From Roseitalea porphyridii (GTDB taxonomy: Bacteria > Pseudomonadota > Alphaproteobacteria > Rhizobiales > Rhizobiaceae), in assembly GCF_004331955.1 (NCBI RefSeq), contig NZ_CP036532.1:2170001-2234000 (forward strand): 64,000 nt of DNA. Reading direction: 5' to 3'. Position 1 is the first letter of the stretch. Each line of letters starts with the position of its first letter. The notes below the pieces were generated by a model. That model searched no databases. It worked only from the letters and a program-made list of their open reading frames with translations, and was not told the origin of the DNA. Shown piece after piece: positions 36,038 through 38,559 of the stretch. Made by a program: the position numbers and the translations under genes.

Positions 36038-36093
36038 TTCGTTTCAACAGGTTGAGCGATCGATCGACGGTGCCTTGCGGCGGGCCCGACGCC

Positions 36094-37164
36094 TCAGATC
36101 CGCTCGAAACCGGTGCTCGTGGCATCGGGCGCCGGCACGCCCAGTCCGAGCACATAGACCGGCGCGTCGAGCACCGGATCGTCGAGCTGGCACAGTTCGG
36201 CGATCGCCCTGTGCGCGAGCGCAGCGGTCGGGCACGCGGTGAGCCCGTGATGGGTCGCCGCGAGCATGATGTTCTGGCCGATGTGGCCCGCTTCGATCAG
36301 CACGACCCGATAGGCATTCGGATCGGAATATTTCCACATGGTCCGGCCGAACGAGGCGCACAGAAAGATCAGGCAGGCCATGTCGTCCATCCAGGGCTGG
36401 TCGCCGACGAGCGCGCTCGGGCGGACCCCCGCGCCGGAGGACAGGGGCAGCAGGGACCGGTCTGCGGCGCTGTAGTGATAAAGGCCGGGCGCCAGCCCCT
36501 CGACACGCCGCGCCAGCACGTAGGCCTCGTAGGGATTGCGAGCGCCACCGGACGGCGTCATCGTCAGCGGCAGGACGCCGGCCTCGTTGCGCGTGTGACC
36601 GACCACGCCAAGCCCTGCATAAAGGCAGTCCGCCACGGCGCCAGCGGCGATCGGCGCCGTGGTGACCTCACGGTGGGTTCGTCGCCGCGCCATCAGCGCA
36701 AATAGTTCCGACTCCTCCGACTGCGGAGCGAACGCGATCGCGTCATCGCGCCCTTCGTGCCGGCGAACCAGTTCCGGCTGAGGCACGGTCCGCGCCTTTT
36801 CGACCTGCAGCCGCTCGAGTTCGGCGACGGACACGGGCGGATTGTCCTGCACCGAGAAATGCAGAAGCGCCGCCGGCAGCGCCCACTCCCAGTCGCGCAC
36901 ATAGGCCGTCTCGCGGGCCTCCTCGGGCGAGCCCTGTCGCAGCAGCACGCCGCAGGCGACGAGCTGTTCGACCAGCGCATCGGAGGCATCGTCGTCATCG
37001 ATCGCCGACTTGACCGCCTCGGCGTCGGCCCATTCGGAAAGGCGCGACAGAACGTCGATCAGGTGCGGCGCGCAGCTGAATGTGGTCTTCTGAAGATAGT
37101 TGAATCCGATCAGATCGGCGCCGTCGTTGGTGAACACGAGCGTGCGGGCAGCGCGGAAGGCCAT
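36094..37164 (-). CDS. SagB/ThcOx-type FMN-dependent peptide dehydrogenase
   Basis: A 356-residue protein of the SagB/ThcOx branch of the nitroreductase fold, flavoenzymes that oxidise backbone heterocycles or residues in ribosomally made peptides. The N-terminal 110 residues form a helical, winged-helix-like domain (CAPHLIDVLSRLSEWADAEA), which in this family can contact the substrate. The flavin domain has RRRTHREVTTAPI, TMTPSGGARNPYEAYVLARR, GLYHYSAADRSLLPL and IEAGHIGQNIMLAATHHGL. The ATG at 37164 was chosen (a GTG precedes it) after GGGG. Directly upstream are a GC hairpin and a 25-codon peptide gene. No cyclodehydratase (YcaO) is nearby, so the chemistry is probably not azole formation of the classical type. 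Confidence 0.85.
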   Translation of the reverse strand: MAFRAARTLVFTNDGADLIGFNYLQKTTFSCAPHLIDVLSRLSEWADAEAVKSAIDDDDASDALVEQLVACGVLLRQGSPEEARETAYVRDWEWALPAALLHFSVQDNPPVSVAELERLQVEKARTVPQPELVRRHEGRDDAIAFAPQSEESELFALMARRRTHREVTTAPIAAGAVADCLYAGLGVVGHTRNEAGVLPLTMTPSGGARNPYEAYVLARRVEGLAPGLYHYSAADRSLLPLSSGAGVRPSALVGDQPWMDDMACLIFLCASFGRTMWKYSDPNAYRVVLIEAGHIGQNIMLAATHHGLTACPTAALAHRAIAELCQLDDPVLDAPVYVLGLGVPAPDATSTGFERI

Positions 37165-37184
37165 CACCGATCCCCAAGGAGACC

Positions 37185-37207
37185 GCGGCCGCCTCGCCGG
37201 CGGCCGC
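37185..37207 (-). terminator. GC hairpin between peptide gene and dehydrogenase gene
   Basis: GCGGCCGCC and GGCGGCCGC form a perfect 9-bp stem with a 5-base loop in the 48-bp gap between the two genes. There is no T run. In peptide-modification operons such hairpins often lower read-through, so that the peptide is made in excess over the enzyme. Attenuation here is inferred from position. Confidence 0.5.
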
Positions 37208-37215
37208 GCTCGATG

Positions 37216-37293
37216 TCAGCGCTTGTCGAAAAGGTTGGCCGGCTTGACGAACGGCGACTTCTTCTGCGGCTGGATCAGGGGCTGCTTGGTCAT
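37216..37293 (-). CDS. 25-residue peptide, possible precursor for the adjacent dehydrogenase
   Basis: A 26-codon frame with a good Shine-Dalgarno (GGAG and GGAAG before the ATG at 37293), ending 52 bp before the dehydrogenase gene. The peptide begins MTKQPLIQPQKKSPF and ends NLFDKR. It is basic and rich in Lys, Pro, Gln and Phe, with one Ser, one Thr, no Cys and no Gly-Gly leader site. This resembles no peptide family known to me. Being first behind a promoter with a CtrA box and sharing a transcript with a SagB-type enzyme, it may be the substrate of that enzyme. A regulatory leader peptide is the alternative. Existence as a gene is likely; function is inferred. Confidence 0.6.
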   Translation of the reverse strand: MTKQPLIQPQKKSPFVKPANLFDKR

Positions 37294-37356
37294 ATCTTCC
37301 ACTCCATGCTGGATTCGCCACGGGTCGTGACGCTGCGGAAGATTTTGCCGGAATGG

Positions 37357-37372
37357 TTAACAAAATCTTAAC
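37357..37372 (-). promoter_or_regulatory. CtrA-type binding site upstream of the peptide gene
   Basis: TTAACAAAATCTTAAC is an exact match to the TTAA-N7-TTAAC consensus of the alphaproteobacterial cell-cycle regulator CtrA, readable in both orientations. It lies 64-79 bp before the peptide start codon, a normal position for activation. The match is seen in the sequence; binding is inferred. Confidence 0.65.
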
Positions 37373-37387
37373 TTACAAAGTAATTCC

Positions 37388-37407
37388 AAGTTTACATCTG
37401 TAAACTT
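37388..37407. promoter_or_regulatory. 20-bp perfect palindrome, possible operator
   Basis: AAGTTTACA and TGTAAACTT are perfect 9-base arms separated by TC. It sits 16 bp upstream of the CtrA box with respect to the peptide gene. The symmetry suggests a site for a dimeric regulator. The neighbouring XRE-type regulator is the obvious candidate, but no second copy was found near its own start. Confidence 0.5.
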
Positions 37408-37473
37408 CCAAACTGACAAAAGTTATCACATTTTATTGTTTACGGCAGCCGGGCGGCGTGCTATCGAATTCGT

Positions 37474-37489
37474 GGCCTAGCGGGTGAGG
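37474..37489 (+). repeat. 16-bp direct repeat, copy 1
   Basis: GGCCTAGCGGGTGAGG, identical to copy 2 at 38598-38613. The two copies flank the XRE-type regulator gene and are 1,124 bp apart. TTTACG-N17-TATCGA just upstream could be a weak promoter pointing towards this copy. Confidence 0.7.
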
Positions 37490-37725
37490 GCCATCCAGCA
37501 ACATCGAAGTATGTCGGAATTTCGACATGAATTGTGCTTGATTGCGTGATTGGCCGCAAGCGCAACATGGCGAATCCAGAAAACCGCCCAGTCTTTCCAG
37601 GCCTTCAAGGCCCCTTCATCACGTAATGTCGCGCCGCCCCTCGGTTTGCGTTGTGCCGCGGCGACAGGCGTACTGTGTAGGCATGCTTGCAGTCACTGGC
37701 GACAACGAGGTCGCGTCCGCTCCGG

Positions 37726-38481
37726 CTATTGGCCGAGCAGCGCACGCATGCGCGTCATCTCCTGGCGAACGATCGGCGGCACGTCCCTGTCGGTGATCGA
37801 CATCGTGCGCGGTCGTTGCAGTGCCTCGCGCAGCGTGGAGACGGGGCACAGCGTCATCACGGCGGCCGCCACGGTACCGCCATCGACGTTCATCACCATC
37901 GATTGTCCCCGATAGAGCGGCACCGATGTGGCCTGCTTCTTGAGCGCGACGATCGACGGCTCATATGTCGGCAAGCGGTTGATCCCGCAGAGATAAATCG
38001 CATCGGCGGCCTGCACCGCGATGCCCCGGTGGTCGCCGCGGAAGAACCGCCAGTCGACCTGGTCACGCTGGTAGAAACTGGTGATCCGCCGGAATTCGAC
38101 GGTCCCTTCCACATGCCGGGTCAGGACAAGCGAGCGCAGCACGGCATCGCGTTCGTTCGGATAGGAAAAGTACAGATCGAACCAGCCCTCGGGCAGGTCG
38201 GGGGGATCGGTGTGGGAAAGCGCCGCGATGATCTCCTGCGCGTAGCGGTACTCCCGCGACGACGTATCGGCGCGAAAGTCCGGATCGACGAGATCGGTCT
38301 CCTCCACCTTGAAGTACCGGCTCATGCGGGCGAGCGTCCGTTCGGTCGGAAGGCTCTCGGCCTGCAGATGCTTTGCCAGTTGCTGCCGCGTGATACCCAG
38401 TTGCCGGGCGACCTCGGAATTGTTGCCCTTTTCCGCGCAAAGCATGTTGAGGTTACGGGAAAAAACCTCGCGCACCTTCAT
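37726..38481 (-). CDS. XRE-type helix-turn-helix regulator with unknown C-terminal domain
   Basis: A 251-residue protein. The first 65 residues form an XRE/Cro-type helix-turn-helix (NNSEVARQLGITRQQLAKHL). The rest, about 75-240, is a mixed domain I do not recognise (EGWFDLYFSYPNERDAVLRS, DWRFFRGDHRGIAVQAADAI), probably a sensor or dimerisation part. It points away from the peptide gene's promoter, with its stop 433 bp from the peptide start. Its own upstream region carries a perfect hairpin and copy 2 of the direct repeat. Base composition there is poorer in G+C than the surrounding core genes. It may regulate the peptide/dehydrogenase pair; this is inference from position only. Confidence 0.8.
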   Translation of the reverse strand: MKVREVFSRNLNMLCAEKGNNSEVARQLGITRQQLAKHLQAESLPTERTLARMSRYFKVEETDLVDPDFRADTSSREYRYAQEIIAALSHTDPPDLPEGWFDLYFSYPNERDAVLRSLVLTRHVEGTVEFRRITSFYQRDQVDWRFFRGDHRGIAVQAADAIYLCGINRLPTYEPSIVALKKQATSVPLYRGQSMVMNVDGGTVAAAVMTLCPVSTLREALQRPRTMSITDRDVPPIVRQEMTRMRALLGQ

Positions 38482-38559
38482 CGTCCCACCCCCGATCGTC
38501 TTCAGGCACGACGCCCTGATCAGGGCTCATATGAAGCCTGGCAGTTACCATAGAAGCAA

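Follow-up and report, generated by a model that had tools for sequence, protein, structure and literature searches.

The window, which is the whole stretch of 64,000 nucleotides of the Roseitalea porphyridii contig NZ_CP036532.1 that was analysed, carries on its minus strand a precursor peptide gene of 25 codons (37219-37293, stop codon 37216-37218) that encodes MTKQPLIQPQKKSPFVKPANLFDKR and is preceded by a GGAG ribosome site, followed after a 48-nt spacer by the gene of a 357-aa SagB-type FMN dehydrogenase of the nitroreductase fold (36094-37167, minus strand, starting at ATG 37164 or GTG 37167). A short, well-initiated peptide gene directly before a SagB-type dehydrogenase had been described in the sequence-only reading, together with a peptide devoid of Cys and holding a single Ser and a single Thr, and these statements agree with the residues counted here (Cys 0, Ser 1, Thr 1). 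The C-terminal core of the peptide is ...FVKPANLFDKR, in which Phe22 is the predicted modified residue. Downstream of the dehydrogenase lie a tRNA-Val and a HAD phosphatase gene on the opposite strand, whereas an HTH regulator and a GGDEF/EAL gene are situated upstream of the peptide gene. The earlier statement that neither protease nor exporter adjoins the pair also holds, as the products of four neighbouring genes (HAD phosphatase, HTH regulator, GGDEF/EAL protein and DAK kinase) were scanned and showed no protease, exporter or YcaO domain. A defence system and a phage origin were considered and dropped, since PADLOC gave no match and the phage collection no DNA match.

The Nitroreductase domain PF00881 (E 7e-20) is the only Pfam match of the window enzyme, and the SagB domain model TIGR03605 scores 98 bits, above its cut-off of 78.4. 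The residues W278-K279-Y280 are invariant across 38 enzyme sequences, so that the Lys-Tyr pair of SagB-type enzymes, which is catalytic in SagB enzymes, is present, and TPSGG.RNP is likewise invariant. Against the PDB, the enzyme-family profile matched best to 3eo7, a putative nitroreductase (125 bits), and it also matched CyaGox (76 bits) and McbC (44.6 bits). The enzyme's N-terminal region, roughly residues 2-92 (36892-37164, minus strand), is a candidate RiPP recognition element (RRE), a feature that many but not all RiPP enzymes have: hhalign comparison of residues 1-90 with PqqD-type sequences gave a local E of 0.0025 at a probability of only 12%, with four controls at E 0.09-0.94, and a second hhalign mode gave 0.0072 and 2%, while no significant RRE match of this domain was obtained in Pfam, NCBIfam or PDB sequence searches. 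The winged-helix-like N-terminal domain proposed earlier therefore keeps a weak PqqD-type resemblance but gains no significant PDB match. The enzyme shows a patchy distribution, being detected in 12 of 201 related genomes (E <= 1e-20), with the window and one divergent partial match included.

Homologous loci were fetched by the enzyme alone, not by the peptide. Six short enzyme patterns run against a genome collection yielded 58 loci and the search of the 201 related genomes yielded 12, window included; seven of these 12, all with G handles, repeat named collection loci and were dropped, this being the one kind of repeat screened, which gives a total of 63. A short peptide gene was observed upstream of the enzyme at 55 of the 63 loci (54 through a loose pattern and L019 by eye), and all 54 short frames of the loose pattern have a purine-rich stretch no more than 16 nt from the start. 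Long or multi-copy precursors occur at five further loci, so that a gene-encoded precursor stands beside the enzyme at 60 of 63; the remaining three comprise L012, whose enzyme is divergent, and L063 and L068, which are broken or cut. These three were omitted from the peptide counts, and L065 was omitted from the short-peptide count and the core profile. A lack of conservation of the small frame upstream of homologous dehydrogenases, named earlier as an outcome that would refute the pair, was thus not observed. In the enzyme-bearing genomes searched with a peptide profile, one good match (E <= 1.5e-3) was found per genome and always adjoined the enzyme (11/11, most of these peptides being themselves rows of the profile), and all other matches had E > 0.3. 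An additional complete cassette was located on a plasmid of 'Roseateles sp. XES5'.

The long precursors are of two kinds. Two Bacteroidota loci encode precursors of 105 and 117 residues containing G-A-x-x-Y-N-K-A, and the precursors of L062 (5656-5958), L064 (3066-3341) and L067 (1442-1687) contain 3-5 tandem 13-residue repeats, e.g., RIVFSTGSASAAQ, with one Phe or Trp per unit. The repeat-bearing loci are labelled as Caulobacteraceae in two cases and as Proteobacteria only in the third, and their cores are unlike the Rhizobiales type; by eye, L062 and L067 adjoin gyrB/recF/dnaN-like genes, and a P450-like gene lies upstream at L062 and L064. Other arrangements were also recorded. On plasmid pTi6.2 of Rhizobium rhododendri, L105 (3543-3884 and 3971-7402) holds a 113-aa precursor, Bacteroidota-like by eye, and an enzyme homologue, as well as an MFS transporter and a protein that matches amidases weakly, and may be a variant with its own exporter. 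On a Sinorhizobium medicae plasmid, L103 (5980-7098) holds an enzyme homologue of 35% identity among AMP-binding, phosphopantetheinyl transferase and hydroxylase genes, with no annotated small peptide adjoining. L087, L088 and L092, in genomes of the phylum, represent a separate clade of SagB-like enzymes, 360 aa long, near which MFS-transporter-like genes lie (by eye), and one of these genomes (G685) also carries a pfl-type cluster.

Selection on the peptide was assessed in the MAKKV-type group only, where 28 distinct sequences, mostly from Mesorhizobium, gave a pN/pS of 0.235 in frame, compared with 1.36 and 2.63 when read out of frame. The C-terminal motif [G/A]-x-x-[F/Y/L]-[D/N/R/S/T] is present in 53 of the 54 short peptides found with the looser pattern, and the search pattern MTKxP...PxxLFDK suggested earlier proved too narrow, as this C-terminal motif is the conserved part. 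Among 19 representative cores, Gly/Ala occupies position -3 in 17, Phe/Tyr position 0 in 17 (Leu in two), Asp/Asn position +1 in 13 and Lys position +2 in 14; Cys/Ser/Thr are not conserved in them and the core is not Cys/Ser/Thr-rich, with the exception that Ser/Thr are present in the 13-residue repeats of L062, L064 and L067, which also do not have the [F/Y][D/N]K motif. The low in-frame pN/pS and the conserved core show that the peptide matters as a protein.

The spacer between the two genes contains a GC hairpin with a 10-bp stem (37184-37208, minus strand), probably an expression-ratio element, and the window spacer folds at -30.5 kcal/mol (z -2.7 vs 50 mononucleotide shuffles). With identical upstream or spacer sequences collapsed, 53 upstream regions and 52 spacers were retained; among these distinct spacers the folding energy is below -12 kcal/mol in 51 of 52 and z is < -2 in 48, with sequences that differ between clades; the hairpin noted before between the peptide and dehydrogenase genes is therefore a recurrent feature. 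It probably keeps enzyme output below peptide output. The order of short frame, strong hairpin and enzyme gene, seen with 51 of 52 spacers, and the T run after some hairpins (e.g., L004, L005 and L061) would also be expected if the frame were an attenuator leader peptide of irrelevant sequence and the hairpin its attenuator, an explanation that we regard as very unlikely in view of the amino-acid-level selection, the conserved C-terminal motif, the 105-117-aa and repeat-bearing versions at the same position and the lack, by eye, of an obvious single-amino-acid run.

The region upstream of the peptide gene is AT-rich, at 51-56% GC compared with 65-70% towards the enzyme and 57-65% towards the regulator. 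A predicted CtrA-type site lies there at 37357-37371 (minus strand), 78 nt before the peptide start, and has the sequence expected of the CtrA regulon, the full site TTAA-N7-TTAA, which is given as the full CtrA site of Caulobacter in the consulted part of PMC4287350. Of the 53 distinct upstream regions, 30, mostly of Mesorhizobium, have TTAA-N7-TTAA no more than 250 nt from the start of the peptide gene, vs a mean of 1.1 and a maximum of 4 in 200 shuffles of these regions; 24 of the 30 belong to the MAKKV group, and the fairer figures are the 6 of 23 found outside it or, with each clade counted once, 5 of 18. The site is positioned 78-102 nt before the start in 29 of the 30 regions (205 nt in L004), and other spacings of the TTAA halves were rare: none for 3-6 and 9, two for 8 and one each for 10 and 11. 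Among 18 clade representatives, five have the site (300 shuffles: mean 0.44, max 3), and in a wider set of 25 the exact site was detected between -135 and -50 in six (shuffled mean 0.2, max 4) and a site with at most one mismatch in 13 (shuffled mean 2.9, max 10); several clades are without it. A perfect inverted repeat, AAGTTTACA-TC-TGTAAACTT (37388-37407), is a possible operator for which no shared counterpart was seen in relatives. Strong inverted repeats occur in 11 of 61 upstream regions, counted without deduplication, vs 2, 0 and 0 in three shuffles, and those displayed differ in sequence; a shared operator palindrome for the regulator was looked for and not found.

The third gene of the cassette encodes a 251-aa Xre/Cro-C1-type regulator (37726-38481, minus strand), for whose C-terminal domain no convincing Pfam model match was obtained. 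At 55 of the 63 loci a homologue precedes the peptide gene, the exceptions being the five long-precursor loci (at two of which the contig extends < 3.5 kb upstream), L012, and L046 and L068, whose contigs are cut, and the regulator adjoins all 11 close enzyme loci in the 201 relatives. The minimal two-gene system of the sequence-only reading is consequently retained as a conserved peptide/enzyme pair, but the unit is a three-gene cassette with a regulator, and the earlier description was incomplete in that both the regulator and the CtrA-type site had been overlooked. That the window pair is a chance arrangement is contradicted because homologous loci repeatedly show the small frame, the hairpin and the upstream regulator. 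The regulator family extends beyond the cassette and was detected in 42 of the 201 relatives, some of its places having other neighbours, by which a regulator dedicated only to the cassette is rejected. Its top-scoring group (>= 275 bits, 11 places) stands beside the enzyme in 11 of 11 enzyme-bearing genomes, these 11 being the profile rows, while six weaker places have other neighbours (by eye). A second close homologue (268 bits) was observed at G077:C22:12380-13099 (L148), with no enzyme or recognisable peptide nearby.

SagB-type flavin dehydrogenases usually need a YcaO partner, and the SagB/McbC/ThcOx azoline dehydrogenases belong to the linear azol(in)e peptide and cyanobactin systems. 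The window enzyme resembles them by sequence in its TIGR03605 domain, Lys-Tyr pair and nitroreductase fold, but the window system differs in having neither a YcaO partner in its genome nor a Cys/Ser/Thr-rich core, and in a tree from which McbC and ThcOx are absent the window clade is separate from the three YcaO-associated enzymes included. The lack of a YcaO partner reported previously extends from the locus to the whole genome of the window (one contig, 99.99% complete), in which no YcaO match was found. An ordinary azoline oxidase acting after a YcaO encoded elsewhere would suit the SagB domain score above cut-off and the presence of YcaO somewhere in 4 of 11 enzyme-bearing genomes searched, yet YcaO was missing from the window's genome and from six further genomes of the 11 (two of these < 90% complete), and the core has no conserved Cys/Ser/Thr. 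Azoline oxidation with a distant YcaO is therefore rejected for the window's genome, where the enzyme is not an azoline oxidase, and for the family it is scarcely credible.

Other known systems were compared as well. The best NCBIfam match over most of the window enzyme is TIGR04511, 'putative peptide maturation dehydrogenase' (161 bits), and membership was rejected because the scores fall below the curated cut-off of 240 (window 161; L062 153.5; L065 143.5; L066 124.2). PqqA and mycofactocin precursors are short, belong to systems of few genes without an exporter, have the core at or near the C terminus and are converted from peptide to small internal molecule by systems that use radical SAM enzymes; the window system likewise has a short precursor, few genes, a C-terminal core and no known exporter, but differs in its enzyme, a flavin rather than a radical SAM enzyme. 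For the chemistry, the nearest precedent by analogy is the nitroreductase domain of PflD, which belongs to another enzyme clade. As described in the consulted part of the preprint PMC12636437, PflD is an MNIO-nitroreductase fusion of Pseudomonas pfl/pos clusters whose nitroreductase domain produces Z-dehydroPhe from Phe within the core LGTAAIFDQQQQIQARMD (...AAIFD...); the same part calls YcaO-free RiPP nitroreductases rare and functionally uncharacterised, and its authors suggest that others could form other dehydroamino acids. PflD and the window enzyme are alike as YcaO-free RiPP enzymes of the nitroreductase fold, and, judged by eye, the Phe modified by PflD and Phe22 of the window peptide share an Ala at -3 and an Asp at +1. 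They differ in that PflD, according to the same part of PMC12636437, is fused to an MNIO, has a HEXXH partner enzyme and acts on a precursor with a large NHLP-type leader, whereas the window system pairs a single enzyme with a precursor of 25 aa, and neither an MNIO fusion nor a HEXXH partner was found in the 357-aa window enzyme or the four scanned neighbours.

At L106 a pfl-type cluster was detected whose core is identical and whose enzyme has 650 residues; this enzyme shares 30% identity with the window enzyme over 293 aligned positions (E 5e-25; 99.7% in profile comparison). In a tree of 47 nitroreductase domains, with only three YcaO-associated rows and with McbC and ThcOx left out, the window family including L103 and L105 is supported at 99/96 and the PflD homologue falls in another clade that is not its sister; membership with PflD was rejected on this ground and PflD is kept as an analogue. 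The family profile scores PflD at 138 bits, uncharacterised groups at up to 160 and the three YcaO-associated enzymes at 109-116. The pattern [G/A]xx[F/Y/L][D/N/R/S] had been set before the comparison with PflA, and the PflA site fits it. When the core profile was run on the PflA-type precursor, the PflD site was not singled out but came 3rd among 78 windows, its own p being 0.015; the corresponding rank was 1st in L065 and 3rd in L066 and L105.

That the peptide is the substrate of the enzyme is very probable, and the RiPP reading draws support, among other points, from the tandem 13-residue repeats of L062, L064 and L067, which resemble multi-core RiPP precursors. The dehydrogenation of Phe22 is a prediction led by the PflD precedent and not a deduction, and Calpha-Cbeta desaturation of the conserved aromatic residue is put forward tentatively, as a plausible guess by analogy. 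Counting against it are the position of PflD in another clade, a PflD profile score not far above those of the YcaO-associated enzymes, the rank of the PflD site as only 3rd of 78 and the repeats without [F/Y][D/N]K. The substrate peptide might instead undergo another oxidation, at the N-Calpha backbone of Gly/Ala (leading to cleavage or amidation), by cross-linking or at Lys; Gly/Ala at -3 and Phe/Tyr at 0 are equally conserved (17 of 19 each), Lys at +2 is frequent (14/19), the aromatic residue is replaceable by Leu, and no characterised enzyme of the window clade was found in the literature among the matches listed. We consider these reactions rather unlikely, given that the sole YcaO-free RiPP nitroreductase with known chemistry found among the matches listed makes dehydroPhe, as stated in the consulted part of PMC12636437.

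Cyclodipeptide oxidases, whose small subunit and fold relation to enzymes of the window type invite comparison, suggest a different role, in which the peptide would serve the enzyme as a small subunit, either structural or activating. The precedent lies in AlbAB, a two-part flavin enzyme of this group that makes alpha,beta-dehydro bonds according to the consulted part of PMC11055893; tandem cores (L062, L064 and L067) and the long leader with C-terminal core of the Bacteroidota precursors fit a substrate better, and the subunit role is judged highly unlikely.

In the best explanation, to which we give about an even chance, the locus is a minimal RiPP cassette in which a conserved aromatic residue of the C-terminal core (Phe22, predicted -2 Da) is desaturated by the enzyme. 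The regulator gene is situated upstream, and the promoter, with a CtrA-type site in many members, would give a transcript with the peptide gene first, on which the stable spacer hairpin would lower enzyme output relative to peptide. The basic N-terminal half of the peptide may dock on the possibly RRE-like N-terminal part of the enzyme, after which the FMN site of the nitroreductase fold would oxidise the C-terminal core with no prior cyclodehydration, most likely by removing two H from Calpha-Cbeta of the conserved aromatic residue or Leu (Phe22 in the window) to leave a dehydro-residue, -2 Da. YcaO in 4 of 11 enzyme-bearing genomes, the weak RRE match and the lack of a known exporter or protease count against this explanation. 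Judged by sequence, the window holds a real and conserved minimal RiPP-like cassette of putative chemistry, with a conserved coding peptide, a dedicated enzyme, a regulator and a hairpin in a genome with no YcaO. The cassette was previously undescribed within the open-licence literature searched, where no description was found among the best-ranked matches listed.

The DNA conserved with congeners stops at about 36046 and restarts at about 38557, which brackets the cassette (36047-38557). The same interval from tRNA-Val to GGDEF/EAL holds a LuxI-type gene in three of four congeners (G001, G002 and G004; L145, L146 and L147), preceded by a LuxR-type gene in G002 (by Pfam) and G001 (by eye); searches of the fourth congener, G003, found no HAD gene (at E 1e-40) and no LuxI, and LuxI had no match in the window's genome. 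Mutual exclusion of LuxI and cassette was rejected, as G002, G062, G072 and G077 carry both. Over 600 bp, the cassette locus of G002 matches Oceaniradius stylonematis without a difference, with LuxI at a different place in G002, and the swap may be only an exchange at a tRNA hot spot because G002 has both systems at different places. LuxI at the same locus in three congeners is a hint of a signalling role for the cassette. A cell-cycle-timed peptide signal can be envisaged, in which CtrA would induce the peptide, the lone flavin enzyme would desaturate its C-terminal aromatic residue, the adjacent regulator would read the product through its C-terminal domain, and the cassette would have replaced LuxR/LuxI at the tRNA-Val locus in the genus; this scenario is speculative and improbable.

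The family represents a minimal substrate/enzyme pair, in most members a peptide of 25-42 residues and one enzyme, so that the reaction is directly testable, and 24 distinct natural cores are usable for mapping the modification site. A dehydroamino acid made by one enzyme on a short peptide would, if true, have use as a biocatalyst. Through the CtrA-type site and the LuxR/LuxI swap the biological role becomes testable as well, and the signal reading, if true, would represent a modified-peptide signalling module in Gram-negative bacteria without its own exporter.
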